Assembly (NCBI GenBank): GCA_026785945.1
Contig: JAJAZD010000127.1
Location: 1-37,939, forward strand
From: Pseudonocardia sp.
Lineage (GTDB): Bacteria > Actinomycetota > Actinomycetes > Mycobacteriales > Pseudonocardiaceae
Reading direction: 5' to 3'
Length of the DNA stretch: 37,939 nucleotides
Positions 417 through 37,939 of the stretch are shown piece by piece. The notes below the pieces were generated by a model. That model was not told the origin of the DNA, did no database searches, and saw nothing but the letters and a program-made list of their open reading frames with translations. Both the position numbers and the translations under genes were made by a program. Position 1 is the stretch's first letter. Each line of letters opens with the position of its first letter.

Positions 417-1409
417 TCACAGCGGCACCGGTGCGACGCCGTGCGCCGCAGCGGCCGCCGCCCAGTTGTCGCGGACCCGTGCGACGAGCACCGGGGGGGC
501 GAGTACCACCACGTCGGGACCGTGTCCGGCGAGCCAACGGGCGACGGTCTCGACGCTGCGCAGGTCCAGTTCCAGCTCCTCGCCGGGCATGCCCCGATGG
601 GCGTGCGGGCCGAGCACCCGGCCGAGCCTGCGCAGGCCGTGCGCCCGCCCGGCGGCGACCCACACCCGTGCGGTTCCCACGGCGGGAGGCGGTTCGACGT
701 CGCGGCGGACCATCGACATGAGGTCGACACCCCCGGGCACGGTGACGGCACCGGCAGGCCCGGTGGGCGTGACGGGCATGCTGATCCGCGAGAGGCGGAA
801 CGACCGTGGTGCGGCGCGGTCGCGGTCGTGCCCGACGAGGTACCAGCGGCCCCGCCACGAGACGACCCCCCACGGCTCGACGGTGCGGCGCGCGATCTCG
901 CCCCCCGGCCCGCCGCGGCGGTGGTCGAAGGTGACCACCCGCCCGGTCTGCACCGCGGCCAGCAGGGGGGCGAACGCCGGTTCGGTGGTCTGCACCCGCG
1001 GCTGGACGCGGCCCTGGTCCTCGTCGACCTCCACGCCGGCGGCACGCAGCTTGAGCAGGGCGCCGTGGGCCGGTCCCGCCAGCTCCGGGGAGTCCCACAG
1101 GCGGGCCGCGAGCGCGACGGCCGCGGCCTCGTCCGGCTCGAGGTCGATCTCGCCGAGCTCGTAGTCCTGGCGGGCGATCCGGTAGCCGTCGGCGGTGTCG
1201 TAGCCCGACAGCCGGCCGGTCTCCAACGGCACGCCCAGCTCGCGGAGCTCGGTCTTGTCGCGCTCGAACATGCGGAAGAACGCGTCGTCGCTCGGGGCGT
1301 CGGCGTAGCCGGGGACGATCGAGCGGATGCGCTCGGCGGTGAGGAACGCCTTCGTCGACAGCAGGCAGAGCACCAGGTTCACCAGCCGCTCGGCCCGCAC
1401 GGAGGACAC
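417..1409 (-). CDS. pafB: PafB, WYL-domain transcriptional activator of the DNA-damage response
   Basis: The protein has 330 residues, the usual size. It starts SSVRAERLVNLVLCLLSTK, the typical PafB winged-HTH opening, followed by FLTAERIRSIVPGY and DAFFRMFERDKTELRELG (HTH to about residue 75). The WYL-type region centres on VEPWGVVSWRGRWYLVGHD (about residue 185) with DHRRGG before it, and a C-terminal WCX-like part follows. PafBC activates genes with TTGTCRGTG-N8-TANNNT promoters when single-stranded DNA accumulates in mycobacteria. The GTG start at 1409 lies 6 nt after a TACTAT hexamer, so the mRNA is probably leaderless. The last bases of that leader and the GTG spell ATGTCGGTG, which resembles half of the PafBC motif (see findings). 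pafC follows after 13 bp. Confidence 0.95.
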   Translation of the reverse strand: MSSVRAERLVNLVLCLLSTKAFLTAERIRSIVPGYADAPSDDAFFRMFERDKTELRELGVPLETGRLSGYDTADGYRIARQDYELGEIDLEPDEAAAVALAARLWDSPELAGPAHGALLKLRAAGVEVDEDQGRVQPRVQTTEPAFAPLLAAVQTGRVVTFDHRRGGPGGEIARRTVEPWGVVSWRGRWYLVGHDRDRAAPRSFRLSRISMPVTPTGPAGAVTVPGGVDLMSMVRRDVEPPPAVGTARVWVAAGRAHGLRRLGRVLGPHAHRGMPGEELELDLRSVETVARWLAGHGPDVVVLAPPVLVARVRDNWAAAAAAHGVAPVPL

Positions 1410-1421
1410 ACCGACATAGTA
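1410..1421 (-). promoter_or_regulatory. Leaderless -10 element of pafB
   Basis: TACTAT (1421-1416) is followed by 6 nt and then GTG at 1409. This fits a -10 hexamer whose transcript begins at or next to the start codon. No Shine-Dalgarno sequence is present. Confidence 0.45.
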
Positions 1422-1547
1422 GGACCGGCTCCGGGCCGACCGTGGCCGACCGGGGAGAACCCGCCGGGCGTCTCACTCTGCGACACCCGCGCCCGCACGT
1501 GGGATCACGGTGCGACGCTCGCCGGACCGCGACCGGGGAGTGACCTC

Positions 1548-1784
1548 ATGGACGACGCAGCCGAGACCTTCAACCCGTGGACCGTGGTGAACCTGGTGTT
1601 CCACCACCTCGCCCATCAGGGGCTGCATCCGGTGCTCGGCGAGGCCGGTGATCCGGCTGTGCCCGCGACGGCCCTGCTGCGGTCGTTCGGCATCGAGCCC
1701 GGTCGCAACGACGAGGCGCTCACCTCGGCGACCGTGCAGGAGGAGCTGGCCGAGATCCGCGCGAAGATGCTCGGCGAGCGCTGA
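1548..1784 (+). CDS. Conserved actinobacterial protein of 78 residues, unknown function
   Basis: A small gene with ATG at 1548 and a clear ribosome site GGGGAG about 7 nt upstream. It encodes 78 residues beginning MDDAAETFNPWTVVNLVFHHLAH, then LHPVLGEAGDPAVPATALLRSFGI, and ends EELAEIRAKMLGER. It has no signal peptide or membrane segment. The acidic N-terminus, central hydrophobic helix and C-terminal helix suggest a small soluble helical protein. I recognise it only as a conserved small protein found beside pafA in actinomycetes and know of no assigned function. It is divergent from pafB and convergent with pafA. A partner role in the Pup system is possible from position alone, but nothing in the sequence shows it. 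Confidence 0.8.
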   Translation: MDDAAETFNPWTVVNLVFHHLAHQGLHPVLGEAGDPAVPATALLRSFGIEPGRNDEALTSATVQEELAEIRAKMLGER

Positions 1785-1794
1785 CCCCGGACGC

Positions 1795-1815
1795 CCCGCC
1801 CACCGTGCCGGCGGG
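1795..1815. terminator. Possible short bidirectional hairpin between convergent genes
   Basis: CCCGCC (1795-1800) pairs with GGCGGG (1810-1815) across a 9-nt loop. It sits in the 62-bp gap between the 78-residue gene and the pafA 3' end. It has no T-tract and the stem is short, so this is tentative. Confidence 0.25.
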
Positions 1816-1846
1816 CGGCGGCCTGCTGTGCCGTGCCGACGGCGAC

Positions 1847-3208
1847 CTACAGGGAGGCGATCAGCCGGTCCACCCGCTCGTCGACCGAGCGGAAGGGGTC
1901 CTTGCACAGGACGGTGCGCTGGGCCTGGTCGTTGAGCTTGAGGTGCACCCAGTCGACGGTGAAGTCGCGGCCCGCGGCCTGAGCGGCCGCGATGAAGTCG
2001 CCGCGCAGCTTGGCCCGTGTGGTCTGCGGTGGCGTGTCCTTGGCGGCCTCGATCTCGCCGTCGTCGGTGACCCGCTCGACCATGCCCTTGCGTTGCAGCA
2101 GGTCGAACAGACCGCGGCCGCGCCGGATGTCGTGGTAGGCGAGGTCGAGCTGCGCGATGCGGGGGTTGGCCAGCTCCATGTCGTTGCGCAGGCGGTAACG
2201 CTCGATGAGCCGGTTCTTGATCGCCCAGTCGACCTCCCGGTCGATGAGCGAGAGGTTCTGGCTCTCGACCGCGTCGAGCGTGCGGCCCCACAGCTCGAGC
2301 ACCCGCGCCGTCGTGGGGTCCTCGCTGCCCCGGGTGGCGACGTGCTCGACGGCTCGGGCGTAGTACTCGCGCTGGATGTCGAGCGCGCTGGCCTCCCGGC
2401 CCCCGGCGAGCCGGACGGTGCGCCGGCCCGTGAGGTCGTGGCTGATCTCGCGGATCGCGCGGATGGGGTTGTCGAGGGTGAAGTCCCGGAACTGGACGCC
2501 CGCTTCGATCATCTCCAGGACCAGCGTGGCGGACCCGACCTTGAGCAGGGTCGTGACCTCGGACATGTTCGAGTCCCCGACGATGACATGCAGCCGCCGG
2601 TACCGCTCGGCGTCGGCGTGCGGCTCGTCGCGGGTGTTGATGATCGGCCGGGACCGGGTGGTGGCCGACGACACACCCTCCCAGATGTGCTCGGCCCGCT
2701 GCGAGAGGCAGTACGCGGCCCCGCGCGGGGTCTGCAGCACCTTGCCGGCGCCACAGATGAGCTGGCGGGTGACGAGGAAGGGCAGCAGGACATCGGCGAT
2801 CCGGGAGAACTCGCCTGCCCGCGCGACCAGGTAGTTCTCGTGGCAGCCGTAGGAGTTGCCCGCCGAGTCGGTGTTGTTCTTGAACAGGTAGATGTCACCG
2901 CCGATGCCCTCGTCGACCAGCCGGCGCTCGGCGTCCACGAGCAGGTCCTCGAGGATCCGCTCCCCCGCCTTGTCGTGTGCGACGAGCTGGGCGAGGGAGT
3001 CGCACTCCGCCGTGGCGTACTCGGGGTGGCTGCCCACGTCCAGGTAGAGCCGTGCACCGTTGCGCAGGAAGACGTTCGAGGAGCGCCCCCACGACACGAC
3101 GCGACGGAACAGGTAGCGCGCCACCTCGTCCGGGGAGAGGCGCCGCTGTCCGTGGAAGGTGCAGGTGACCCCGAACTCGGTCTCCACACCGTAGATCCGC
3201 CGCTGCAT
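1847..3208 (-). CDS. pafA: Pup-protein ligase PafA
   Basis: The protein has 453 residues, the family length. PafA phosphorylates the C-terminal Glu of Pup with ATP and joins it to a lysine side chain of a target protein. Visible signatures are the N-terminal GVETEFGV (Mg/ATP-binding Glu9 and Glu11), [22 protein letters not shown] (nucleophile-region Asp57), [18 protein letters not shown], the [13 protein letters not shown] loop and [13 protein letters not shown]. These belong to the carboxylate-amine ligase (glutamine synthetase-like) fold shared with Dop. The C-terminus [17 protein letters not shown] is typical. The ATG at 3208 follows a TACGCT hexamer by 6 nt. In many actinomycetes the proteasome genes are adjacent; here two unrelated genes separate pafA from prcA. 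Confidence 0.97.
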
Positions 3209-3237
3209 CTGTTCAGCGTAGGCGGAACATGCGACAC
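3209..3237 (-). promoter_or_regulatory. Leaderless pafA promoter with a weak RecA-NDp-like upstream half
   Basis: TACGCT (3220-3215) lies 6 nt before ATG 3208. Exactly 8 nt upstream of the hexamer is GTGTCGCAT (3237-3229), which keeps the TGTCG core of the PafBC motif in the right register but loses GTG at its end. The -10 is reasonable; PafBC dependence is weak. Confidence 0.4.
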
Positions 3238-3376
3238 GTGGGGCGACACCGCGCCGGTCCGGTCACCGACCGGGCCCGGAATGCGGCGGGTCGGCGGCGG
3301 TACCGCACGAGGAGCAGCCCTCCACCCGTGCCCGACGCCGGCGGCCGCGGGCAGGCCGCGCGCGGGCGGCCACGGG

Positions 3377-3389
3377 TAGGGTCTGCCGG
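3377..3389 (+). promoter_or_regulatory. Leaderless -10 element of the PAP2/diacylglycerol kinase gene
   Basis: TAGGGT (3377-3382), then 7 nt, then GTG at 3390. It is divergent from the pafA promoter in the same 181-bp intergenic region, which otherwise shows no feature. Confidence 0.4.
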
Positions 3390-4934
3390 GTGATCACGTG
3401 GCTGCAGCGTGCTGCCGACCAGGTCAACCGCACCGACAGCGAGCTGTCCCGCGTTGTGTCGGCGATCCCCCGGAGCCCGTTCGACACCGCCATGAAGGCG
3501 GCCTCGACGGTGGCGAACCACGGCGTGCTGTGGTTCGTGATCGCTGTGTCCTTCGCCGCCCGCCGAGGCGCGTCACGCAAGGCGGCGTTCCGTGGTGTCC
3601 TCGCCGTCGCCGGGGCCAGCACCGTCGCGAATGCGCTGCTCAAGCCGCTGCTGCCGCGCAGGCGCCCGGCCGCCTGGGAGCTCCCGGCCTACCAGCGGGT
3701 CCAGAGCCCTCCGTTGTCGTCGTCGTTCCCGTCGGGGCACGCCGCCTCGGCCGCGGCGTTCGTGACCGCGGTCGCCCTGGAGAGCCCGCGGCTCGGCATG
3801 GCCGTGGCGCCCCTCGCCGCGGCGGTGGCCTACTCGAGGGTGCACGTGGGCGTGCACTGGGCGTCCGACGTCGTCGCCGGCGCCGCGGTGGGTACCGGTG
3901 TCGCGTTGCTGACGCGGCGCTGGTGGCCGGTTCGGAAGACCGACGAGGCGCGCGCCCGGCCGGTGGACACCGTGCCGATGCTCCCGCGCGGCGCGGGCCT
4001 GGTGATCGTGTCCAACCAGCGCTCGGGCGACCCGAACCGTGATCCCGCCGACGAGCTGAAGAGGGCACTGCCGGCGGCCGTCGTCGTCCGGGCCGAGCGC
4101 GGTCGCGATCTCGACGCCCAGTTCGACGAGGCCGTCACCGCGCAGGGGGACCGGGTCCGTGCCGTGGGCGTGGCCGGTGGCGACGGCACTGTGGCCGCGG
4201 CGGCCGCAGTCGCCGCACGGCGCTCGTTGCCACTGGTGGTGGTGCCCACGGGTACGCTCAACCACTTCGCCCGCGACGTCGGCGTCTACGACCTGCAGGA
4301 GGCCGTGGACGCCACCGGCTCTGGCCAGGCCGTCGCCGTCGACCTCGGGGTGGTCGACGTCCACTCCGACTCGGGGGCCGACTCCGACTCCGACATCGTG
4401 CGGGTCCGCTGGTTCGTGAACACCGCGAGCCTGGGCTCCTACCCCGACCTCGTGCGCCTGCGCGAGAAGTGGCAACCGCGTTGGGGCAAGTGGCCGGCGT
4501 TCGCCGCGGCGCTGGTCGTCGTGCTCCGCCGGGCCGAGCCTGTCGCCACCTGCATCGACGGACAGTGGACGTCGGTCTGGTTCCTGTTCGTCGGCAACGG
4601 GCCCTACCACCCGCGGGGCATGGTGCCGGCGTGGCGCCCGACGCTCGACTCCGGTCTCCTCGACGTCCGCTGGGTGCGCGCCGACGTCCGCTTCTCGAGG
4701 CTCCGCGTCGTGGTGGCGCTGCTGCTCGGCGCGCTCGGCCACAGCACGGTGTACGTCCAGCGGGAGGTCACCGAGCTCGGCGTGCAGCTCGAACGCCCGG
4801 GGATGCTGGCCACCGACGGCGAGGTGGTCGAGGAGGCGGGGCGCTACACGTTCCGCGTCGCGAAGGAGCCGGTGCCCGTCTACCGGCGCGACGAGGGCCG
4901 CTGGTCGGGCCGTCACCGCCCGTTCCAACCTTGA
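3390..4934 (+). CDS. PAP2-family phosphatase fused to a diacylglycerol kinase-like domain
   Basis: A 514-residue two-domain protein. Residues about 35-180 form a membrane PAP2 phosphatase with all three motifs: KPLLPRRRP (85-93, KX6RP), PSGH (114-117) and SRVHVGVHWASD (149-160, SRX5HX3D), between hydrophobic segments. Residues about 203-505 are a DAGK/NAD-kinase-like catalytic domain with GVAGGDGTVAA (GGDGT at 263-267) and VVPTGTLNHFARD. Such fusions are thought to act on isoprenoid or lipid phosphates at the membrane; the substrate is unknown. An acidic run SDSGADSDSD near residue 330 is an insertion in a loop. The gene lies between pafA and the prc genes with no evident functional link to pupylation. 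GTG 3390 is chosen because TAGGGT precedes it by 7 nt. Confidence 0.92.
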   Translation: MITWLQRAADQVNRTDSELSRVVSAIPRSPFDTAMKAASTVANHGVLWFVIAVSFAARRGASRKAAFRGVLAVAGASTVANALLKPLLPRRRPAAWELPAYQRVQSPPLSSSFPSGHAASAAAFVTAVALESPRLGMAVAPLAAAVAYSRVHVGVHWASDVVAGAAVGTGVALLTRRWWPVRKTDEARARPVDTVPMLPRGAGLVIVSNQRSGDPNRDPADELKRALPAAVVVRAERGRDLDAQFDEAVTAQGDRVRAVGVAGGDGTVAAAAAVAARRSLPLVVVPTGTLNHFARDVGVYDLQEAVDATGSGQAVAVDLGVVDVHSDSGADSDSDIVRVRWFVNTASLGSYPDLVRLREKWQPRWGKWPAFAAALVVVLRRAEPVATCIDGQWTSVWFLFVGNGPYHPRGMVPAWRPTLDSGLLDVRWVRADVRFSRLRVVVALLLGALGHSTVYVQREVTELGVQLERPGMLATDGEVVEEAGRYTFRVAKEPVPVYRRDEGRWSGRHRPFQP

Positions 4935-5008
4935 CGAGCCGTCCCCGACGGTGCGTCCGGATGGTGCGGGCCGTTGACAGCACCCCGGCCCCGGACTACC
5001 CAGGAGCG

Positions 5009-5220
5009 GTGCGCGTCGTCGGGATGGATCACATCGTGCTCGTCACCGCCGACGTCGAGCGGCTCGTCGCCTGGTACCGCGACGTCCTGGGCCTCACGCC
5101 CGAGCGGTGGGGGCGCGGCGCGGCGAGGCGCCGTTCCCGTCGCTGAGGGTCAGCGAGGCCACGATCATCGACGTGGCGCCGGACCCGACCTCCCGGTGGG
5201 CGGTCTGCGCCGCAGCTCGG
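5009..5220 (+). pseudogene. Remnant of a VOC (glyoxalase/dioxygenase) protein, frameshifted and 3'-truncated
   Basis: The reading frame from GTG 5009 or ATG 5024 gives MDHIVLVTADVERLVAWYRD then VLGLTPERWGRG, the standard first beta-alpha unit of a VOC domain. It then runs into RRRSRR and a stop at 5146. The next frame, from about 5107, continues with RRGEAPFPSLRVSEATIID, which is how this family normally continues. A small indel near 5107-5125 therefore breaks the gene. After about 5200 homology is lost and the second half of the fold is missing. It converges on prcA. A sequencing error could explain the frameshift but not the missing 3' half. Confidence 0.75.
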
Positions 5221-5238
5221 CGCGCTGCACGCCCGGAT

Positions 5239-6060
5239 CTATGTGGGATCCGGGACGCTCTCGGACCCCCCACCGGCCGGGGCGTCGTCACCGCCGGCCA
5301 CCTCCGCGGTGGCCGCGGCGTCGGCGCCGCGGTTCTCCTCGGGGAGCAGGCCCCCGAGCGCGGCGCCGGTGATGCGGCGGAACGTACGGCGGGGACGGCT
5401 CCGGTCCAGCACCGCCACCTCCAGCGCGCTCACCCCCAGAACCTTCGGGGCCGCACCGTTCCCGCTCGACGAGCCGGTCGTCGTCGGGGTGCCGGTCGCC
5501 TGCAGCGCGTCGACGGCGATCGCGACCGCGGCGTCGAGTTCCAGGCCGGGCCGGTAGGTTTCCTTGAGCTTCGTGCTGATCGGCTCGGTGGTGCCGCCCA
5601 TGACCACGAACTGCGGCTCGTCGGTGATCGACCCGTCGTAGGTCACGCGGTAGAGCTGGTCGCCCTCGGGGGTCGATCCCACACCGGCGAGGCACAGCTC
5701 CACCTCGTAGGGCTTCTGTTGCTCGACGAAAGCGGTGCCGAGCACCTGGGCGTAGAAGTTGGCCAGCATCCGGCCGGTGACGTCGCGCCGGTCGTAGGAG
5801 TAGCCGCGGACGTCGGCCATCCTGATGCCGGCGTTGCGCAGCGTCTCGAACTCGTTGTAGCGGCCCACCGCGGCGAACCCGATGCGGTCGTAGATCTCCG
5901 AGACCTTGTGCAGCGCGCTGGAGCGGTTCTCAGCGACGAAGATCACGCCGCCGGTGTAGGTCAGCACCACGACGCTGCGGCCGCGGGCGATGCCCTTGCG
6001 GGCCAGCTCCGAGCGGTCGCGCAGCAGCTGGTCGACCGAGGAGTAGAACGGCATCGTCAC
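5239..6060 (-). CDS. prcA: 20S proteasome alpha subunit PrcA
   Basis: A 273-residue proteasome alpha subunit that forms the outer gating rings of the 20S core and docks the Arc/Mpa ATPase. The N-terminus [21 protein letters not shown] is the actinobacterial H0/gating segment, followed by [19 protein letters not shown] and [17 protein letters not shown]. There is no N-terminal catalytic Thr, as expected. The C-terminus has a long Gly/Ala/Glu-rich tail ([16 protein letters not shown] through [10 protein letters not shown]), longer and more disordered than the core fold needs. The start may be GTG 6060 or ATG 6054; AGGAG lies about 8 nt before GTG 6060. It follows prcB by 46 bp in the dop-pup-prcB-prcA order. 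Confidence 0.96.
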
Positions 6061-6106
6061 GGGAGGAACTCCTGGGGGGTCGTACGAGTACGGATCATGG
6101 GGTCGG

Positions 6107-6955
6107 TCAACCCCCTGGGTTCTCGGTGCGGCCGGTGACGACGTCGCGCACGATCGCGCCGATCTCCTCCTCGGGGCGCCGCAACGCGCCCTCGGCCCCG
6201 GTGATGCTGACGACCACGGGGTAGATGCCGCGGGTGAGGTCGGGGCCGCCGGTGGCGGAGTCGTCGTCGGCGGCGTCGTAGAGCGCCTCGACGGCCGCGC
6301 GCACGGTGGTGGGCAGGTCGGCGGCCACGTCGTGGCGCTTCTTGAGCGCCGACTTCGCGAACACCGAGCCGGATCCGATGGCCTCGAAGCCCCGGCTCTC
6401 GTCGGAGCGGTGGCCGGTGACGTCGTAGGTGACGATGCGGCCCGCCTTGGACGGGTCGGTGGCGTCGACGTCGTAGCCGACGAACAGCGGGATCGCGGCG
6501 AGGCCCTGCATGGCGGCCCCGAGGTTGTTGCGCACCATGGTGGCGAGCTGGTTGGCCTTGCCGTCGAACGACAGCGGCACGCCCTCGATCTTCTCGTAGT
6601 GCTCGAGCTCGACGGAGAACAACCGGACCATGCCGACCCCGATACCGGCGGCCCCGGCGATACCCATCGCCGAGTGGGAGTCGGTGACGAACACCTTCTC
6701 GATGTCGCGCTGGGAGATCACGTTGCCCGACGTGGCACGCCGGTCGCCCGCGATGACGACGCCGTCGGCGAACTGCAACGCGACGATCGTGGTGCCGTGC
6801 GGGACCTGCAACCCCGAACCGGGCGTGACGCCCTCGGGGAGTCCCGGTAGCAGGTGTGGGGAGTGGGCGGTGACGAGATCTGTGAACGACGACGGGCCGG
6901 GCGCGAGGAACGCGTCCAGGCCGGGGGCGCGCGTGGTGCGCTCCGAGAACGACAT
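6107..6955 (-). CDS. prcB: 20S proteasome beta subunit PrcB (proteolytic)
   Basis: A 282-residue beta subunit with a propeptide of about 54 residues. Cleavage at [15 protein letters not shown] exposes Thr55 as the N-terminal nucleophile. In mature numbering the catalytic Asp17 (GDRRAT) and Lys33 (IEKVFVTDS) are both present. The [11 protein letters not shown] and GIYPVVVSI segments are typical of bacterial beta subunits. The beta rings sit inside the PrcA rings, and activity requires autocatalytic removal of the propeptide. ATG 6955 begins [30 protein letters not shown] run lies about 17 nt upstream, rather far for a ribosome site. pup is 65 bp upstream and prcA 46 bp downstream. Confidence 0.97.
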
Positions 6956-7020
6956 GGTCTGGTGCGTGCCTCTCCTCGTGCGGGTGCGGTCGAACGGGTG
7001 GAGCAGGCGGGGCGGTGCGG

Positions 7021-7218
7021 CTACTCGCCGCCCTTCTGGACGTAGGCCCGGACGAAGTCCTCGGCGTTCTCCTCCAGCACGTCGTCGATCTCGTCGAGGA
7101 TCGTGTCGACGTCCTCGCCGAGCTTCTCACGGCGCTCCTGGCCGGCCGCCGCGGCGTCGGCTCCCTCGTCGTCGTCCCCGCCGCCGCCGCCCTGACGCTT
7201 CGTCTGTTCCTGCGACAT
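7021..7218 (-). CDS. pup: Prokaryotic ubiquitin-like protein Pup, encoded ending in Gly-Gly-Glu
   Basis: A 65-residue modifier conjugated to lysines by PafA. It begins MSQEQTKRQ, has a Gly/Asp-rich disordered part, then the Arc-binding coiled-coil segment [18 protein letters not shown], and ends [12 protein letters not shown]. The last codon before TAG is GAG, so the C-terminus is already Glu rather than the Gln found in mycobacteria. Dop deamidation is therefore not needed before ligation. The ATG at 7218 is set by a strong ribosome site, GAGGAGGAGAGG, about 6 nt upstream. The 129-bp gap from dop contains a GGTAG-7nt-CTACC palindrome (7277-7293) overlapping TAGTGT, a possible pup promoter, unproven. 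Confidence 0.97.
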
Positions 7219-7347
7219 GTGCTGCCTCTCCTCCTCGCGGCCCGGGCGACGACTCGCGTGCGGCGTTCCGGGGTCCGGTAGCTGAACACTACCCAGCCGA
7301 GTCGCGACACGCCCGCCGTCACACCCGTGAAGACGGGCGGGTCGCGG

Positions 7348-8865
7348 TCAACCCCGGGTGAGGGCCTCGACGAGCTCCTCGGCCGTCCGGGAGTTGTCGA
7401 TCAGCTCCCCGACGTGGCGCTTCGTGCCCCGCAGCGGCTCCAGTGTCGGGATCCGGACCAGCGACTCCCGCCCCAGGTCGAAGATCACCGAGTCCCACGA
7501 CGCGGCGGCGACCTCGGCGGGGTACCGCTCCAGGCAGCGGCCCCGGAAGTAGGCACGGGTGTCCTCCGGCGGTGTGCGCATGGCCGCGATCACGTCCTCC
7601 TCGCTGACCAGGCGCTTCATCGAACCGCGGGTGGCGAGTCGATTGTAGAGGCCCTTCGCCATCCGCACGTCGGCGTACTGCAGGTCGACGAGCTGCAGCC
7701 GCGGGGCGTCCCAGGTGAGCCCGTCGCGCTCGCGGTAGCCCTCCAACAGGCGCAGCTTCGCCGTCCAGTCCAGCCGGTCGGCGGTGCTCAGCGGGTCTCG
7801 GTCCAGGTCATCGAGCACCTCGCCCCAGAGCGCGAGCACCTCGGCGGTGGCGTCGTCGACGTCGGCACCCATGGTGTTCTCGACGTGCTTGCGGGCCTTC
7901 TCGAAGTACGCCCGCTGGACGTCCAGGCCGGTCATCTTCCGCCCGTCGGCGAGTTCGACCGTGGTCTTCAGGGTGGGATCGTGGCTGATCCTGTGCACCG
8001 AGCGGACGGGCTCGGCGAGGCGCAGCTCGTCGAACCGCACACCGGACTCGATCATGTCGAGCACCAGCGCGGCCGTCCCGACCTTCAGGAGGGTGGAGTA
8101 CTCGCTCATGTTGGCGTCGCCGATGATCACGTGCAGGCGGCGGTACTTGTCGGCGTCGGCGTGCGGCTCGTCGCGGGTGTTGATGATGCCGCGCTTGAGC
8201 GTGGTCTCCAGGCCGACCTCGACCTCGATGTAGTCGCTGCGCTGCGCGAGCTGGTATCCCGCCTCGTCACCGGACGCGCCGAGCCCCACCCGGCCGGCCC
8301 CGCAGATGACCTGGCGCGTCACGAAGAACGGCGTCAGCCCGGACACGATCGCCGGGAACGTGGTGGACCGCGCCATCAGGTAGTTCTCGTGGGAGCCGTA
8401 GCTGGCGCCCTTGCCGTCGACGTTGTTCTTGTAGAGCTGGATCCGCGGCGCCCCCGGCACGGTGGCCGAGCGCATCGCGGCCTCCTCCATCACCCGTTCC
8501 CCCGCCTTGTCCCAGACCACGATGTCGCGCGGTGTGGTGACCTCCGGCGTGGAGAACTCGGGGTGGGCGTGGTCGACGTAGAGCCGCGCGCCGTTGGTGA
8601 GGATGACGTTGGCGGCGCCGAGGTCGTCGAGCTCGGAGTCGTTGGGGGCGTGCAGGGTGGGGGCGGACAGGTCGAACCCGCGGGCGTCGCGCAGCGGTGA
8701 CTCCACCTCGTAGTCCCATCGGGCCCGGCGCGAGCGCGGGATGTCGGCGGCCGCGGCGTAGGCCAGCACCACCTGCGTGGAGGTGATCACCGGGTTGGCG
8801 GTGGGGTCACCGGGTACCGAGATCCCGTACTCGATCTCGGTACCCATGATCCGGCGGGCGGTCAC
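7348..8865 (-). CDS. dop: Pup deamidase/depupylase Dop
   Basis: About 505 residues, the usual Dop size. Dop removes Pup from substrates by hydrolysing the isopeptide bond, and deamidates Pup-Gln in species that need it. It shares the PafA fold: [10 protein letters not shown] (Mg/ATP-binding Glu), [20 protein letters not shown] (catalytic Asp region), [34 protein letters not shown] and [13 protein letters not shown]. The Dop-specific loop after [18 protein letters not shown] is present. I place the start at GTG 8865 ([13 protein letters not shown]), with GAGG 7 nt upstream. A longer frame reaches 8922, but its extra residues do not resemble the family. Because Pup here ends in Glu, Dop is predicted to act only as a depupylase. 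Confidence 0.95.
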
Positions 8866-8990
8866 GAGCCGGCCTCGACGAGCGCAGTCATGCCCCGAGA
8901 CTATCCGGCGTCCGACGGACAAGCGGTTCGATCAGCTCCCGCGGCCGGCCGCCCCCTGCACAACGCGCACGCAAGTCGGGCCCGCAAGCC

Positions 8991-9034
8991 CGCGAGTCGG
9001 GGTCTGCGTGCGCGCGAGTCGGGGTCTGCGTGCG
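8991..9034. repeat. Perfect 22-bp tandem repeat, two copies
   Basis: CGCGAGTCGGGGTCTGCGTG plus CG occurs at 8991-9012 and again, without a gap, at 9013-9034. A degenerate partial copy (CGCAAGTCGGG) lies just upstream. It sits in the 540-bp non-coding stretch 8923-9462. Function unknown; two copies are too few to call a CRISPR or minisatellite array. Confidence 0.85.
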
Positions 9035-9066
9035 CCCTGCGCAGGCGCGAACCACCATGACCCCCA

Positions 9067-9115
9067 CGCGAGCGGCACTCCCGGGCGATAGGTTCGCGCG
9101 AGAGTGCCGCTCGCG
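9067..9115. repeat. 14-bp perfect inverted repeat around a 21-nt loop
   Basis: CGCGAGCGGCACTC (9067-9080) is the exact reverse complement of GAGTGCCGCTCGCG (9102-9115). It has the appearance of a dispersed intergenic hairpin element in an actinomycete genome, downstream of the phytase-like remnant on the minus strand. It could instead be that gene's old terminator. Confidence 0.8.
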
Positions 9116-9152
9116 CGGATCCGGGCCCTTCCGACCCGCAGGACCCTCGTGG

Positions 9153-9350
9153 TCAGCGCACAGCGACCGCGACGAACTGGGTGACCTGGGTCGGGGCGAA
9201 GTTGTCGTCGCTGACCAGCACCAGGGTGCGGGAGCCGTCGGCGCGGTCCGGGCCCCAGGCCATGCTCTCGATGTTGTCAACAGACCCGACCGGGAGGTCG
9301 GCGATGTCGCCGTCCGGGCCTCTGCGCGGGTCGACCGGCGGGCCTTCCCG
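9153..9350 (-). pseudogene. C-terminal remnant of a secreted esterase-like/phytase-like protein
   Basis: Reading the minus strand to the TGA at 9155-9153 gives GDIADLPVGSVDNIESMAWG, then PDRADGSRTLVLVSDDNF and APTQVTQFVAVAVR. This is the characteristic C-terminus of the family annotated as esterase-like activity of phytase (NIE-MAWGP and LVLVSDDNFAPTQVTQF). Only about 50-65 codons are recognisable. Upstream the frame becomes Pro/Arg-rich and runs into the promoter of the AraC gene, with no signal peptide or start. It is a 5'-deleted relic. The rest of 8923-9462 holds only the two repeats and the AraC promoter. Confidence 0.72.
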
Positions 9351-9434
9351 GTCGGGCCCCGGTTCGGGCCGGTCGGACGTTGGATGTCGAGGTGGAGATC
9401 GTCGTCCGGGGTCCTGAGCTCGGGTGCCCGCACG

Positions 9435-9462
9435 ATGTCGGTGCCGGGAGCTACGGTCACGC
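9435..9462 (+). promoter_or_regulatory. RecA-NDp (PafBC-type) promoter of the AraC-family gene
   Basis: ATGTCGGTG (9435-9443), an exact 8-nt spacer (9444-9451) and TACGGT (9452-9457) match TTGTCRGTG-N8-TANNNT with one mismatch at the first base. Five nt later comes GTG 9463. The spacing and position before the start codon are what a PafBC-activated, essentially leaderless promoter should show. Confidence 0.62.
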
Positions 9463-10209
9463 GTGGCCTATCGCGAGTTCCCGGCGCCGGTGACGCTGCG
9501 CGGCCTGGTCGAGTGCGGCTGGACGGCATCGCTCACGCCGCGGGAGTCTCCGCAGGTCCACGACGTGCTGCCCGACGGCTGTATGGACCTGGTCTGGACC
9601 GGCACCGGGCTCCTCGTCGCCGGACCGGACACGGGGCCGCATCCCGTTCGTCGCGAGCCGGGTGTGGCCGCCGCCGGCCTGCGGTTCGCTCCCGGGCAGC
9701 TGCCGGCGCTGCTCGCCGTTCCTGCGGCGGCGCTTCGCGACCAGCGCGTACCGCTCGCGGAGTTGCACCGCGACGCCGCACGCCGGGCCACCGATCGGTT
9801 GGAGCTCGGTGCCGCTGCGTCGGCGGTGCTGGCCGATCTCGCATGGGCCCTGCCCGGTCGGCCACCGGCCGTCGCGGTACGGGCCGTCGCCGTCCGGCTC
9901 GGCGCGGGCGCGTCGGCGGCGTCCACCGCCGACGCTCTCGGCTGGACCACCAGGTCGCTGCACCGCCGCTGTGTCGCCGCGTTCGGCTACGGCCCCGCCG
10001 TGCTCCGGCGGGTGCTGCGCTTCCGAAGGGCCGTCGCGCTGCTCCACGCCGGGATTCCCCCCGCCGAGGTCGCCGCCCGCGCCGGCTACGCCGACCAGCC
10101 GCACCTCTCGCGCGAGGTCCGGGCGTGGGCGGGGGTGTCGCCGGGTCAGGTCGCGAGCGGGGCGAACAGGTCCACGGTGTTGCCGTCGGGATCGTGGATC
10201 ACGGCGTAG
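9463..10209 (+). CDS. AraC-family transcriptional regulator (DUF6597-like N-terminus)
   Basis: 248 residues from GTG 9463. The N-terminal half begins AYREFPAPVTLRGLVECGWT and has VLPDGCMDLVWTGTGLLVAGPDT, typical of AraC-type proteins with a DUF6597-like sensor region. The C-terminal half (about 160-235) is a two-HTH AraC DNA-binding domain: LGWTTRSLHRRCVAAFGYGP then FRRAVALLHAGIPPAEVAAR and AGYADQPHLSREVRAWAGVSP. The tail SGANRSTVLPSGSWITA overlaps the 3' end of the convergent VOC gene by 64 bp. Target genes are unknown; the VOC gene is the nearest candidate. Its promoter matches the PafBC damage motif, so it may be a secondary regulator in that response (inference). Confidence 0.9.
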   Translation: MAYREFPAPVTLRGLVECGWTASLTPRESPQVHDVLPDGCMDLVWTGTGLLVAGPDTGPHPVRREPGVAAAGLRFAPGQLPALLAVPAAALRDQRVPLAELHRDAARRATDRLELGAAASAVLADLAWALPGRPPAVAVRAVAVRLGAGASAASTADALGWTTRSLHRRCVAAFGYGPAVLRRVLRFRRAVALLHAGIPPAEVAARAGYADQPHLSREVRAWAGVSPGQVASGANRSTVLPSGSWITA

Positions 10210-10550
10210 CGCTGCCCCCAGAACGCGTCGAACGGGGCGAGCTCACCGTGGTACCCGGCTGCGGTCAGTTCGGCGTGGAGCGCATCGACGTCCGCCGGGT
10301 CCGGGAGCGCGAAGGCGAGGCTCATGCGGCCCGCCCCCGCCGGGGGCGGCGTCCACCCGGGGTGGAACGAGCGGATCGTGTCGTCGGTGTCGAACGCGAG
10401 GCGCATCCCGCGGGCCAGCGCGACCTCGACGTGTGGTTCGTCGTCCGCGGACACCGGCGTGTCCAACCCCAGCCGTCGGTAGAAGGCAAGTGCCCGCGCC
10501 ATGTCCGCCACCACGATCCCGACCACGCCCAGCTGTGCGTCGACCGTCAT
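10146..10550 (-). CDS. VOC-family (glyoxalase/bleomycin-resistance-like) protein
   Basis: 134 residues forming one full VOC domain of two beta-alpha-beta-beta-beta units. Unit one opens LGVVGIVVADMARALAFYRRLGLDTP; unit two runs MSLAFALPDPADVDALHAEL to RYAVIHDPDGNTVDLFAPL. The terminal DPDGN-V-LF is the usual C-terminal metal-ligand strand. The substrate cannot be told from sequence; many such small proteins are annotated as glyoxalases without data. ATG 10550 follows TAGCGT by 8 nt. Its last 64 bp are read on both strands together with the AraC gene, a convergent arrangement that would give complementary mRNA 3' ends. Confidence 0.9.
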   Translation of the reverse strand: MTVDAQLGVVGIVVADMARALAFYRRLGLDTPVSADDEPHVEVALARGMRLAFDTDDTIRSFHPGWTPPPAGAGRMSLAFALPDPADVDALHAELTAAGYHGELAPFDAFWGQRYAVIHDPDGNTVDLFAPLAT

Positions 10551-10564
10551 GGAGCGGGACGCTA
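10551..10564 (-). promoter_or_regulatory. Leaderless -10 element of the VOC gene
   Basis: TAGCGT (10564-10559) is followed by 8 nt and ATG 10550. No ribosome-binding site is visible. Confidence 0.4.
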
Positions 10565-10610
10565 GAGGTCCCTGCCTCGGATGTCGTGATCAGATCGGAC
10601 ATCCGGTGCG

Positions 10611-10675
10611 GTGATCATCGATTCGGCGCGGAGCCCGGCCGGATCCGACCGGAAACGCGCCGAACCGGTGATCAC
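10611..10675. repeat. 20-bp near-perfect inverted repeat
   Basis: GTGATCATCGATTCGGCGCG (10611-10630) pairs with 10656-10675 with two mismatches across a 25-nt loop, and CCGG pairs occur within the loop. It lies downstream of arc, after the stronger terminator hairpin. It may be a secondary terminator or a dispersed repeat element. Confidence 0.7.
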
Positions 10676-10691
10676 TGCCGCGCACCGACGC

Positions 10692-10733
10692 GCCGACGGG
10701 CCCGACGCGGGATGCGCGTCCGGGCCCGTCGGC
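10692..10733 (-). terminator. Strong hairpin terminator after arc
   Basis: The arms 10692-10709 and 10715-10733 are complementary over 18 bp with one bulged base and a 5-nt loop. The hairpin begins 8 bp past the arc stop codon on the minus strand. It lacks a U-tract, as is common for actinomycete terminators. Confidence 0.65.
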
Positions 10734-10741
10734 GTGGCGAG

Positions 10742-12565
10742 CTACAGGTACTGGCCGGTGTTCGACGCGGTGTCGATCGCGCGGCCGGTGGCGTCGTTCT
10801 TGCCGGTGACCAGCGTGCGGATGTAGACGATCCGCTCCCCCTTCTTGCCCGAGATCCGCGCCCAGTCGTCGGGGTTCGTGGTGTTGGGCAGGTCCTCGTT
10901 CTCCGCGAACTCGTCGACGATCGCGTCGAGCAGGTGCTGCACCCGCAGGCCCGGCTGGCCGGACTCGAGCACCGCCTTGATCGCCGACTTCTTACCCCGG
11001 TCGACGATGTTCTGAATCATGGCACCGGAGTTGAAGTCCTTGAAGTACAGGATCTCCTTGTCACCGTTGGCGTAGGTGACCTCCAGGAACCTGTTCTCCT
11101 CGGTCTCGTCGTACATCCGCTCGACGACCCGCTCGATCATCGCGTCGATGCAGGCCTTGCGGTTGCCACCGAACTCCGCGATGTCGTCGATGTGGATCGG
11201 CAGCGTGGAAGTCAGGTACTTGGAGAAGATGTCCTGCGCCGCCTCGGCGTCCGGCCGCTCGATCTTGATCTTGACGTCGAGGCGTCCCGGCCGCAGGATC
11301 GCGGGGTCGATCATGTCCTCGCGGTTGGACGCGCCGATGACGATCACGTTCTCCAGGCCCTCGACGCCGTCGATCTCGGCGAGGAGCTGGGGCACGATCG
11401 TGGTCTCGACGTCGGACGACACGCCGGACCCGCGCGTGCGGAAGATCGAGTCCATCTCGTCGAAGAACACGATCACCGGGGTGCCCGCCGAAGCCTTCTC
11501 CCGCGCCCGCTGGAAGATCAGCCGGATGTGCCGCTCGGTCTCGCCGACGAACTTGTTGAGCAGCTCCGGACCCTTGATGTTGAGGAAGAACGCGCGACCC
11601 TCCTTGGGGTCGTCACCGCGGACTGCGGCGATCTTCTTGGCCAGCGAGTTGGCCACAGCCTTGGCGATCAGCGTCTTGCCGCAGCCGGGAGGGCCGTAGA
11701 GCAGAACGCCCTTGGGCGGGCGCAGCTCATACTCCTTGAACAGCTCCGCGTGCAGGAACGGCAGCTCCACGGCGTCGCGGATCTGCTCGATCTGACGGAA
11801 CAGGCCACCGATGTCGGAGTAGTCGACGTCGGGCACCTCCTCCAGCACGAGGTCCTCGACCTCGGCTTTGGGCACCCGCTCGTAGGCGTAGCCGGCCTTC
11901 GTGTCGACCAGCAGCGAGTCGCCGGGCTTGAGTGGCACGGCGCCGGGGTTGTCGTCGGTGCGGATCAGCGGCGCCGCCAGCCAGACGACCCGCTCCTCGT
12001 CGGCGTGCCCGATGACGAGCGCGCGACCCGCGAGCCCGTCCGTGGTGGGCTCGGACAGGACCTCGCGCAGGCCGCAGACCTCGCCGATGCGCTCGTAGTC
12101 CCCGGCCTCGACGACCGTCAGCGCCTCGTTCAGGCGCACCGTCTGACCGCTCTGCAGCTCCTCGGTGGACACCGCGGGCGAGACGGCGACCCGCATCCGA
12201 CGCCCCGAGGTGAACACGTCCACCGTCTCGTCGGGGTACCGCGCCAGGAACACGCCGTAGCCGCTGGGCGGCTGGGCGAGCCGGTCGACCTCCTCACGGA
12301 GCGCCACGAGCTGTCCGCGGGCCTCCTTGAGCGTCTCGGTCAGCTTCTCGTTGCGTGCCGAGAGCTGAGCGAGTCTGCTGGCCGCCTCCGCCAACCGCTG
12401 CTCGAGGACGCGCGTCTGCCGCGGCGACTCCGTGAGCTTGCGGCGAAGCAGACCCACCTCCTCCTCGAGGAAGCGGATCTGCGCGGTGGCCTCCGCGGGG
12501 CTGAGTTCCCCGCCGTCATGAGGGCCACCTGGTTCACGTCTGCCGGGACCGTCGTAGGGGTTCAC
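10742..12565 (-). CDS. arc: Proteasome-associated AAA+ ATPase Arc (Mpa)
   Basis: 607 residues from GTG 12565, chosen because AGGGAGG lies 5 nt upstream. The N-terminal coiled coil (about residues 20-85, [20 protein letters not shown] onward) captures Pup. Tandem OB domains follow (about 90-240, including [12 protein letters not shown]). The AAA+ module has Walker A GPPGCGKT, Walker [11 protein letters not shown] and the arginine-finger region ILRPGRLD. The C-terminus ends GQYL, the HbYX-like tail with penultimate Tyr that docks into PrcA and opens the gate. Arc unfolds pupylated proteins and feeds them to the core. It lies 103 bp downstream of trmI and is separated from dop by the AraC/VOC pair. 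Confidence 0.97.
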
Positions 12566-12668
12566 GGCGTCCTCCCTCCGCGTTCCGTTTCCATACGGTA
12601 CCTGCGAATGGGGATTGCGGCCCGCGGCGAACCGGTGATCCACCGCTCAGCCGGGAGATCCGGCGGGT

Positions 12669-14676: not shown

Positions 14677-14706
14677 GTGTCGGTGCGCTCACCTACCCTC
14701 ACGACC
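14677..14706 (+). promoter_or_regulatory. RecA-NDp (PafBC-type) promoter of the RecB-family nuclease
   Basis: GTGTCGGTG (14677-14685), an exact 8-nt spacer (14686-14693) and TACCCT (14694-14699) match TTGTCRGTG-N8-TANNNT at all but the first base. Seven nt later comes GTG 14707. A DNA-processing nuclease is a logical member of a damage regulon, and the activator genes pafBC are in this window. Confidence 0.75.
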
Positions 14707-36111: not shown

Positions 36112-36186
36112 TCCGCACGGAACTCGCGCGGCGGCGCCTCGGCCGGGATGACGCACCTCGGCCCGACTGTTCGGGCATTCCGGCGA

Positions 36187-36215
36187 GTGTCGGTGACCGC
36201 ATTTAAGGTCGTGAC
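36187..36215 (+). promoter_or_regulatory. RecA-NDp (PafBC-type) promoter of the FAD oxidoreductase operon
   Basis: GTGTCGGTG (36187-36195), an exact 8-nt spacer (36196-36203) and TAAGGT (36204-36209) match TTGTCRGTG-N8-TANNNT except at the first base. GTG 36216 follows after 6 nt. The 9-mer is identical to the one before the RecB-family nuclease. Confidence 0.75.
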
Positions 36216-37763
36216 GTGAGCCGACAACTTTCCTCCCGCGCGGCCCCGCTGCGGATGCGCCCCCGAGTGCTCGTCGCCGCCGACCCGACCCGACCCGACG
36301 ACGTGCCCGAGGGCACCGAGGCCGTGGTCATCGGCGCCGGCGTGGCCGGGGTGAGCGCGGCCGTGGTGCTGGCCGAGCGCGGTGTGGCCGTCACCCTGCT
36401 GGAGGCCGCACCGACGCTCGGCGGGCGGCTGGGGGCGTGGCCGCACACGCTGCCCGACGGCACCGAACAGGTCGTCGAACACGGGTTCCACGCATTCTTC
36501 CGGCACTACTACACGTGGCGGGCGGTGCTGCGACGTGTCGATCCCGAGTTGGGGTTCCTGCGCCCGGTGGGCGGCTACCCGGTGATCTCGCGGGAATGGC
36601 CGCCCGAGGACCTCACCGGACTTCCCGGCGCCCCGCCGCTGAACCTGCTGGCCCTGTTCGCCCGCTCCCCCAGCCTCGGACGGCGCGACATCCTCGGCTG
36701 CGACCAGGCGTTGGCCGCGGAGCTGCTGGCGTATGACCGCGGGCGCACCACGGCGTTGTTCGACGCGATGCCGGCGGCGGAGTTCCTGCAGCGCCTGGGC
36801 ATGTCCGACCGCGCCCAGGCCATGCTGTTCGAGGCGTTCGCCCGGTCGTTCTTCTGCAACCAGGCCGGGTTGTCGGCCGGCGAGCTGATCGCGATGTTCC
36901 ACTACTACTTCCTGGGCAACCCCGAGGGCATCGGCTTCGACGCGCCCGACACCGACTACCTGACGTGCATCTGGGCCCCGTTCACCGCGTACCTGGAGAA
37001 GAACGGCGCGCAGGTGCGCACCGGCACCGCGGCCCGCGCGATCGCCCCCACCGACAGCCACCGCTGGCGCGTCGAGCTGGCCGACGGCGCACCGCTGCAG
37101 ACCCGCCACCTCGTGCTCGCCACGGAACCGGGCGCGCTGCGCGGCCTGCTCGCGGCCTCACCCGAGGCCGCCGCGGCCGCGCCCCGGCTCGCGGAGAAGG
37201 CCGCGGCGCTCACCGTCGCGCCGCCGTTCGCCGTCAGCAGGCTGTGGCTCGACCGCGACGTCGACGCCGCCCGGCCCACCTTCAACGCCGTGAGCAGGGA
37301 GCCGACGCTGGACTCGGTGACCGTCTACTCCCGGTTGGAGCGCCCGTCGGCGGAGTGGGCGGCCCGCACCGGAGGTGCGGTCGTGGAGCTGCACTCCTAC
37401 TCCTGCGACGCAGCGGGCGTCGACGAGGCCACCGCGCGGATGCGTGCCGAGCTCGCCGTGCTGTGGCCCGAGACGGCCGACATCGGTGTCGTACACCTCC
37501 AGCAGCGGCTCGAGGCCACCGCACCGGCGTTCCCGCCCGGTTCGGCCGGTACCCGCCCCCACGTCGCCGGGGAGGCCAGGGGGGTTCGCGTCGCGGGCGA
37601 CTACGTCGCCACCCCCTTTCTCACCGGGCTGATGGAGCGCGCATCGGTCTCGGGCGTGCTCGCCGCGAACGATGTCCTGGCCGAGGTCGGCGCCGGGCCC
37701 GAGGAGATCCGTGGGGTGCCACAGCGCGGGCTGCTCGCGGGCCTGCTGCCCACCCGACGCTGA
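36216..37763 (+). CDS. FAD-dependent oxidoreductase, CrtU/phytoene-desaturase-like
   Basis: 515 residues from GTG 36216. The Rossmann FAD site is EAVVIGAGVAGVSAAVVLAE (GxGxxG at 40-45), then LLEAAPTLGGRLGAWP, and the C-terminal FAD motif lies in GVRVAGDYVATPFLTGLMER. The middle part (EHGFHAFFRHYYTWRAVLRR, SFFCNQAGLSAGELIAMFHY and YFLGNPEGIGFD) resembles actinobacterial isorenieratene-synthase/CrtU proteins, which are fused to or derived from carotenoid desaturases. No carotenoid genes are in the window and no Rieske motif is visible, so the substrate is open. The PafBC-type promoter and the probable polymerase gene 2 bp downstream suggest a damage or light-stress role (inference). Confidence 0.85.
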   Translation: MSRQLSSRAAPLRMRPRVLVAADPTRPDDVPEGTEAVVIGAGVAGVSAAVVLAERGVAVTLLEAAPTLGGRLGAWPHTLPDGTEQVVEHGFHAFFRHYYTWRAVLRRVDPELGFLRPVGGYPVISREWPPEDLTGLPGAPPLNLLALFARSPSLGRRDILGCDQALAAELLAYDRGRTTALFDAMPAAEFLQRLGMSDRAQAMLFEAFARSFFCNQAGLSAGELIAMFHYYFLGNPEGIGFDAPDTDYLTCIWAPFTAYLEKNGAQVRTGTAARAIAPTDSHRWRVELADGAPLQTRHLVLATEPGALRGLLAASPEAAAAAPRLAEKAAALTVAPPFAVSRLWLDRDVDAARPTFNAVSREPTLDSVTVYSRLERPSAEWAARTGGAVVELHSYSCDAAGVDEATARMRAELAVLWPETADIGVVHLQQRLEATAPAFPPGSAGTRPHVAGEARGVRVAGDYVATPFLTGLMERASVSGVLAANDVLAEVGAGPEEIRGVPQRGLLAGLLPTRR

Positions 37764-37765
37764 GC

Positions 37766-37939
37766 GTGCGGATCGCGCTCGACCCGGGCCCGACCGACGG
37801 CGTCGCCCGGGTGCGGCTCCTGCACGACGACGGCACCCCGCTGGGCCCACCCGAGACGCTGCCCGGTCTCGGTGCGGTCGCCGCATTGGAGCGCCGACAC
37901 GCTCCGCGGTGGGTGTTCGCGCGCCCGCGCACCTACCGG
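37766..37939 (+). CDS. Probable bifunctional 3'-5' exonuclease/DNA polymerase (5' end only)
   Basis: The last 58 codons of the window, from GTG 37766, 2 bp after the FAD gene stop and open to the edge. The translation begins VRIALDPGPTDGVARVRLLH and has LPGLGAVAALERRHAPRWVF then ARPRTYR. This resembles the N-terminus of actinobacterial family-A enzymes annotated as bifunctional exonuclease/polymerase, which open with an RIA strand and have a PRWVWA-type segment about 50 residues in. The fragment is too short for catalytic motifs, so the call is tentative. If right, it would be cotranscribed from the PafBC-type promoter at 36187. Confidence 0.45.
   Translation, partial: MRIALDPGPTDGVARVRLLHDDGTPLGPPETLPGLGAVAALERRHAPRWVFARPRTYR

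Follow-up and report, generated by a model that had tools for sequence, protein, structure and literature searches.

Introduction

The regulon of PafBC, described in mycobacteria, and the PolA2/APEX group of actinobacterial family-A DNA polymerases are among the described systems closest to the locus analysed here. According to the available part of the mycobacterial work, PafBC activated by single-stranded DNA sets the sigma-A RNA polymerase on its promoters (PMC11804915), for which the accessible sections of another report give the consensus TGTCGG-N10-TA-N3-T (PMC8151990). In 2022, a study stated in its accessible part that an initial motif search suggested that the PafBC motif of M. smegmatis was not conserved in Streptomyces venezuelae (PMC9380542). 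The available sections of a PolA2/APEX survey describe these polymerases as having an inactivated 3'-5' exonuclease and the clamp motif QxxLF, which was a feature reported after the grouping by phylogeny and clustering and not a criterion of that grouping (PMC12926913). The same sections, which do not mention PafBC, called the cellular role of PolA2 "to be established" in 2026, with mutagenic repair being suspected (PMC12926913). Within the literature searched, no paper joined PafBC with Pseudonocardia. The name APEX was reportedly given by a 2023 paper.

Here, we describe a locus of the soil bacterium Pseudonocardia sp. in which a candidate PafBC-type promoter precedes a carotenoid-desaturase-type flavoprotein gene and a gene probably encoding PolA2. 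The window, that is, the whole stretch of DNA analysed, was one entire contig (C127) of 37,939 bases from an assembly of 4.46 Mb in 380 contigs.

Results

The candidate promoter and its counterparts in the genome

The predicted promoter was located at 36188-36209 of the forward strand and matched exactly the pattern TGTC[AG]G-N10-TANNNT, which follows the accessible part of the consensus report (PMC8151990). Lined up with the orthologous promoters, it consisted of the -26 element TGTCGGTG (36188..36195, +), the 8-nt spacer ACCGCATT (36196..36203, +) and the -10 hexamer TAAGGT, of the form TANNNT (36204..36209, +). An earlier note on this DNA had described the nine bases GTGTCGGTG (36187-36195), the 8-nt spacer and TAAGGT (36204-36209) as a damage-type promoter lying 6 nt before GTG 36216, followed by a second gene 2 nt behind the first, and all of these elements were present. 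The flavoprotein gene (36216..37763, +) had a predicted leaderless start at this GTG, 6 nt after TAAGGT, and the second gene started at GTG 37766, with a gap of 2 nt after the flavoprotein stop codon. By these features, 36188-36209 is predicted to be a PafBC-type damage promoter of a leaderless mRNA.

When up to one mismatch was allowed, TGTCGGTG-N8-TANNNT was found three times in the window, each time as an exact match, against 0.16 sites expected, and none of 100 shuffled windows had at least three sites. The whole genome contained 20 exact sites and none of the reversed pattern; summed over 41 genomes, of which one had no site, the counts were 438 versus 14. A chance motif was ruled out by the shuffles, the reversed-pattern controls and the orthology. 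The genes behind strict sites of this genome included those of RecA, UvrB, UvrC, the NAD-dependent ligase LigA and a DEDD exonuclease, all over their NCBIfam cut-offs, as PafBC predicts. A RecB-like nuclease (a weak AddB match) and a SNF2-type helicase, both below the cut-offs, also stood behind strict sites. Less expected were a P-type ATPase and a TIGR02677 protein, both over the cut-offs, as well as AraC-type regulators, an ECF-like sigma factor, a DinB-like protein and HisD, which were named from their translations alone. No clear gene was found behind the remaining sites among the 20.

The other two strict sites of the window were at 14678-14699, 7 nt before GTG 14707 of the RecB-like nuclease gene with the weak AddB match, and at 9436-9457, 5 nt before the GTG of a gene that by translation encodes an AraC-type regulator and had no NCBIfam match. 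On another contig, a strict site (L004 1501-1522; G000:C80:5690-5711) was found 37 nt before the start of the TIGR02677 gene (551 bits), whose product we take to be a Wadjet-type (JetA) defence component, and damage control of a plasmid-defence operon is a possible reading of this site.

A further element, CATTCC (36176..36181, +), was located 5' of the -26 element and was typical of the flavoprotein-PolA2 operon. Among the 28 PolA2-linked flavoprotein loci, 17 had it, at distances that varied, and elsewhere it was rare, being found in 2 of 52 other flavoprotein loci and 2 of the 100 PolA2 loci of the Pseudonocardiaceae set described below; one of the two non-linked flavoprotein loci that had it was L108, on a cut contig, where the promoter motif was also present. 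The excess in linked loci (17/28 versus 2/100 family PolA2 loci) and the suitability of a pigment-type enzyme for photo-oxidative stress would fit a photo-oxidative stress unit, in which the motif is no PafBC site or a second regulator, such as an oxidative- or light-stress factor acting via CATTCC, dominates. This explanation is extremely improbable in our judgement, with the same strict pattern also marking recA, uvrB, uvrC and ligA in this genome and the motif agreeing with the consensus in the accessible part of the published account (PMC8151990).

A PafB-like regulator, with WYL and WCX domains by Pfam, was encoded at 417..1409 (−) beside pafA (1847-3208, −; NCBIfam), and it is the likely activator of the 36188-36209 promoter. 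Beyond the PafB gene the contig contained only 416 bases, and four further WYL matches were located elsewhere in the genome. These genes were part of a Pup-proteasome locus (417-12643, −) comprising pafB, pafA, prcA/prcB, pup, dop and a proteasome ATPase, about 24-36 kb from the operon, in which pafA and the ATPase were named by NCBIfam, pafB by Pfam and the rest by eye.

The flavoprotein belongs to the carotenoid desaturase superfamily

The first gene encoded a FAD-dependent flavoprotein of carotenoid-desaturase type with 515 aa, which was 83% identical to its P. nigra counterpart and had its closest kin in Pseudonocardia. Its profile matched the phytoene desaturase 5mog along almost the entire length (positions 21-481 of 499; E 4e-25), and the Pfam Amino_oxidase match was 79 bits. 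Among the best 25 of 138 NCBIfam models, none reached its cut-off; assignment to the hydroxysqualene dehydroxylase HpnE was rejected, as TIGR03467 scored 129.9 bits with the cut-off of 283.05 unmet. By its sequence, the protein is a member of the carotenoid desaturase superfamily with candidate activity on a carotenoid.

In Mycolicibacterium, and in a few Pseudonocardia, relatives of the flavoprotein were encoded next to homologs of CruF, CruG or CrtD, of which those of CruF and CruG scored below their cut-offs. These carotenoid-cluster relatives were 65-76% identical to the flavoprotein, with those of Mycolicibacterium at 65-68%. The earlier designation as a CrtU-like FAD enzyme was thus right as to the carotenoid-desaturase type, but CrtU is not the closest kin, since the candidates L083-L085, which are presumed to be CrtU-type from their neighbours, were only 39-41% identical. 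Alignment columns conserved to at least 90% in both the PolA2-linked and the cluster group numbered 216, of which 214 were identical and two differed between the groups. With so few differences, the chemistry of the flavoprotein is probably the same as that of its cluster relatives.

The comparison covered the window and the best 80 of 124 relatives (named loci). In the tree, from which L157 was excluded for its short frame, the PolA2-linked rows formed two supported clades, one with 26 rows (21 linked, four 'cut' and one unlinked) and the other with six, and the cluster-linked rows formed one main clade (29/30) and a separate pair (L104 and L107); the order among these branches carries no support. 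Both copies, one in each context, occurred in P. autotrophica, P. halophobica, P. terrae, P. kujensis and RYN_114. Among these two-copy genomes, the P. autotrophica and P. halophobica copies were identical, and the site of RYN_114 was a loose match.

The genome under study had a crtI-family gene adjoining a prenyl diphosphate synthase homolog, and also a CruF homolog. A pigment role would be less plausible had the carotenoid pathway been lost, but no such loss was seen: a crtI-family gene over the cut-off was present in 37 of the 41 genomes searched. CruF as an obligatory partner was not supported, being found in just 12 of the 41 genomes and in 4 of 25 in the genus. No match to CruF, CruG, the flavoprotein or PolA2 was found in the 14 crtI regions fetched, and together with the scarcity of CruF in the genus this leaves the pathway partners of the flavoenzyme uncertain. 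The low frequency of CruF (4/25) and the stable association of the flavoprotein with a polymerase behind a damage-type promoter could also suggest that the enzyme no longer acts on carotenoids and instead acts alongside PolA2 or upon some product of damage, such as in redox reactions of DNA, nucleotides or quinones. We regard such a role as very unlikely, because all but two of the 216 columns conserved in both groups are the same as in the carotenoid-cluster relatives and the crtI-family gene is so widely kept.

In Pseudonocardia the promoter follows PolA2

PolA2 matches numbered 42, in 40 of 62 genomes of the genus, the split gene of the window being uncounted. In 28 of the 30 best-scoring loci among these matches, the flavoprotein gene was directly upstream of PolA2, and the junction of the two genes was overlapping or close in many of them; of the other two loci, L358 had a partial and distant flavoprotein match and one had none. 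The motif TGTCNNNN-N8-TANNNT was found within 150 nt in 22 of the 28 PolA2-linked flavoprotein loci, 12 of which were strict, so that motif, flavoprotein and polymerase do stay together in the genus, as the earlier note had asked. Each of these 22 had its in-frame start codon 6-7 nt behind the -10 element, and a leaderless mRNA is predicted from this distance. Ten of the 28 linked loci departed from TGTC[AG]GTG, mostly as TGTCGGGG. The counts at all loci were made over related genomes and are hence non-independent.

The pattern was absent from six other loci of the 28 linked ones (L086, L095, L105, L112, L114 and L116). Near-matches were seen by eye at L095 and L112, and none in the P. dioxanivorans group (L105, L114 and L116). 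Upstream of 6001 at L086, just a few bases separated the -26 element TGTCGG from the start codon, as if spacer and -10 element had been deleted.

At flavoprotein loci without PolA2, the motif was found in 0 of 49 (31 carotenoid clusters and 18 others). This count excludes four loci classed as 'cut', namely L090, which had no upstream DNA, and L092, L108 and L142, of which only L108 had the motif; L092 is not truly cut downstream and had neither PolA2 nor motif, and with it the unlinked count would become 0/50. Two genomes, G020 (L101) and G019 (L092; 88% complete), were located inside the linked clade and had the flavoprotein, with no PolA2 seen and no -26 element. Upstream of the flavoprotein at L101, L092 and L142, a TANNNT -10 element near the GTG persisted and the TGTC was gone. 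Conversely, G364 had PolA2 without the flavoprotein upstream, and TGTCGGGG-N8-TAGACT was located there 6 nt before the in-frame GTG of PolA2 itself. A promoter owned by the flavoprotein was therefore rejected, with the motif missing from all 49 unlinked copies and present at PolA2 genes without flavoprotein. On this comparison of loci, the promoter goes with PolA2 and not with the flavoprotein. The claim of a promoter of a flavoprotein and polymerase operon thus stood insofar as the site precedes both genes, but the site was apparently the polymerase's originally.

A promoter that tracks PolA2, and a PolA2 locus without the flavoprotein (1/30 in the genus), would also be expected if the flavoprotein were a passenger behind the PolA2 promoter, co-expressed and with no damage role, so that only PolA2 matters. 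This is unlikely, since 28 of 30 loci share the gene order, with the junction often overlapping or close, and the flavoprotein has retained almost every residue that is conserved among its carotenoid-cluster relatives, whereas a gene without a use should decay.

The second gene and its orthologs

The window contained the 5' end of the second gene, 58 codons (37766..37939, +) cut by the contig end, which was 78% identical to PolA2 of P. nigra and alone gave no Pfam or NCBIfam match. On contig C252 of the same assembly, positions 4819-5088 of 5089 matched the C-terminal 90 residues of the family and were 84% identical to P. nigra PolA2. The two pieces probably belong to one gene, which is known here from its two ends, the middle not having been found in the assembly. 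The name PolA2 rests on full-length orthologs and not on the fragment of the window.

The full-length ortholog of P. nigra (L058) scored 659 bits with NF011538, whose cut-off is 389. Among the 60 of 70 PDB matches listed, the profile of the family aligned with the polymerase region of chains such as Taq and Klenow, and in the orthologs the polymerase motifs A and C retained their catalytic acids, including in the alignment to Taq. No exonuclease domain was found by Pfam in two orthologs. Of the family-A exonuclease/polymerase suggested earlier, the polymerase part was supported by the L058 match, but the exonuclease part was not, as the protein appears to be of the PolA2/APEX kind, whose exonuclease is inactivated according to the available sections of the survey (PMC12926913). 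Taking taxon, domain content, the NF011538 match and the QxxLF site together, we infer that the group of the downstream gene is PolA2/APEX. The LF of the clamp motif was kept in 57 of 57 proteins (27 from named Pseudonocardia loci, 30 drawn from the 101 loci of the family), and its Q in 24 of the 30 from other Pseudonocardiaceae and in none of the 27 from Pseudonocardia (L086-L157), the window copy ending before this site. The replacement of Q in Pseudonocardia PolA2 coincides with the flavoprotein operon.

PolA2 promoters outside Pseudonocardia

PolA2 over the cut-off was present in 103 of 150 genomes of the family. The set analysed contained 100 of 101 loci (L218, a badly placed region, was dropped), and two of the 103 genomes were left out, G164 because its match spans the gene only in part and G005 because the Pseudonocardia set already included it. 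The pattern TGTC[AG]NNN-N8-NANNNT, followed after 4-9 nt by an in-frame start, was found at 87 of these 100 loci, including the site of L343 (-128), which was unlike its relatives and probably occurred by chance; shuffles gave 0.1 per set, and the same pattern was found at 7 of 514 neighbouring genes, called with a simple script, of other loci. One of the 100, L266, was a Pseudonocardia locus with the flavoprotein upstream and no motif, so that the count for other genera was 87/99, and no flavoprotein match was found upstream of PolA2 in these 99 loci. The -10 element of the family PolA2 loci was mostly CACAAT (40) or CAGAAT (27) and never TANNNT. In 60 genomes, TGTCRGTG-N8-CASAAT had 43 sites against one of the reversed pattern, and 14 of the 43 were at PolA2 by coordinates.

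Outside the family, the leaderless motif was found at 37 of 59 PolA2 loci. It was frequent in f30 (13/15), f31 (11/12) and f28 (9/13), was found at the single loci of f8 (1/1) and f15 (1/1), and was scarce in f35 (1/8), f44 (1/7), f18 (0/1) and f36 (0/1). Its near-absence in f35 and f44 counts against the explanation put forward below. The PolA2 promoters of f30 (L286-L314), which has large genomes and is possibly Streptomyces, mostly had TGTC[AG]... with CACACT, CAGACT or a similar -10 element and leaderless starts. This variant -10 element may explain why the mycobacterial motif was missed in Streptomyces, as reported in the available part of the 2022 study (PMC9380542), and may be a reason to re-examine that genus for the PafBC motif.

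Discussion

The explanation that we consider probable is that 36188-36209 is a PafBC-dependent, RecA/LexA-independent promoter of a leaderless two-gene operon, in which a desaturase gene ended up between polA2 and its ancestral promoter. By analogy with mycobacteria, DNA damage would expose single-stranded DNA, and PafBC activated by it would bind and bring the sigma-A RNA polymerase to 36188-36209. The induced transcript would be a bicistronic leaderless mRNA starting at or next to GTG 36216, and its products, judged by family membership, would be a membrane-acting FAD-dependent desaturase of carotenoid type and a PolA2 without working proofreading. PolA2 probably serves error-prone gap filling or lesion bypass. 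That a damage switch apparently controls the two-gene unit suggests that PolA2 is a damage-response enzyme. As to the evolutionary direction, the promoter would ancestrally have been that of polA2, and in Pseudonocardia a copy of the flavoenzyme gene of the carotenoid cluster would have come between them. The modification of a carotenoid or another polyprenoid would then be co-induced with a repair polymerase, and a damaged cell could possibly gain from the quenching of reactive oxygen, from photoprotection or from a change of the membrane. The early steps of this mechanism follow from the promoter pattern and the published mycobacterial work, and the last step from family membership.

A broader version of this explanation is offered tentatively and is rather doubtful: PolA2 could be PafBC-inducible across a large part of the Actinobacteria via a leaderless promoter with a CANNNT -10 element, and the carotenoid enzyme captured in Pseudonocardia could have left its pigment partners and now work in the damage response. 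Such a -10 element, if true, would escape searches made with the mycobacterial consensus. With a PafBC-type promoter on PolA2 in 87 of 99 other Pseudonocardiaceae loci and in several other families, the suspected role in mutagenic repair becomes testable. The Pseudonocardia operon would, moreover, directly link a pigment-type membrane enzyme to DNA repair genetically. The kinds of parts are known, and their combination and the regulation of PolA2 appear to be new within the literature searched.

Compared with the known systems, the locus resembles the PafBC regulon with its RecA-NDp or P1 promoters of mycobacteria in the -26 element, the 8-nt spacer after TGTCGGTG and the TANNNT -10 element, as well as in the repair genes that the pattern precedes elsewhere in the genome and in the position of PafB beside PafA. 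It differs in its target, since a flavoprotein/PolA2 pair was not met in the accessible parts of the published accounts searched, and in the predicted leaderless mRNA, unlike the recA site of this genome, from which the start codon is 51 nt away. In other genera, the -10 element of PolA2 departs from the TANNNT of the regulon, being CANAAT or similar. The polymerase is like PolA2/APEX, as described in the available sections of the survey (PMC12926913), in being an actinobacterial family-A enzyme with a match to NF011538, no exonuclease domain match and the acids of motifs A and C, and is unlike it in that the Q of QxxLF is replaced in all 27 Pseudonocardia examined and the operon is shared with a flavoprotein. 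The flavoprotein shares with the FAD protein of the Mycolicibacterium carotenoid clusters 65-68% identity and 214 of the 216 jointly conserved columns, yet the latter is located in a pigment cluster, whereas the Pseudonocardia copy is located with PolA2 under a damage-type promoter. CrtU, the carotenoid ring desaturase/methyltransferase, belongs to the same superfamily, but at 39-41% identity to its candidates the flavoprotein is more distant from them and has other downstream neighbours.
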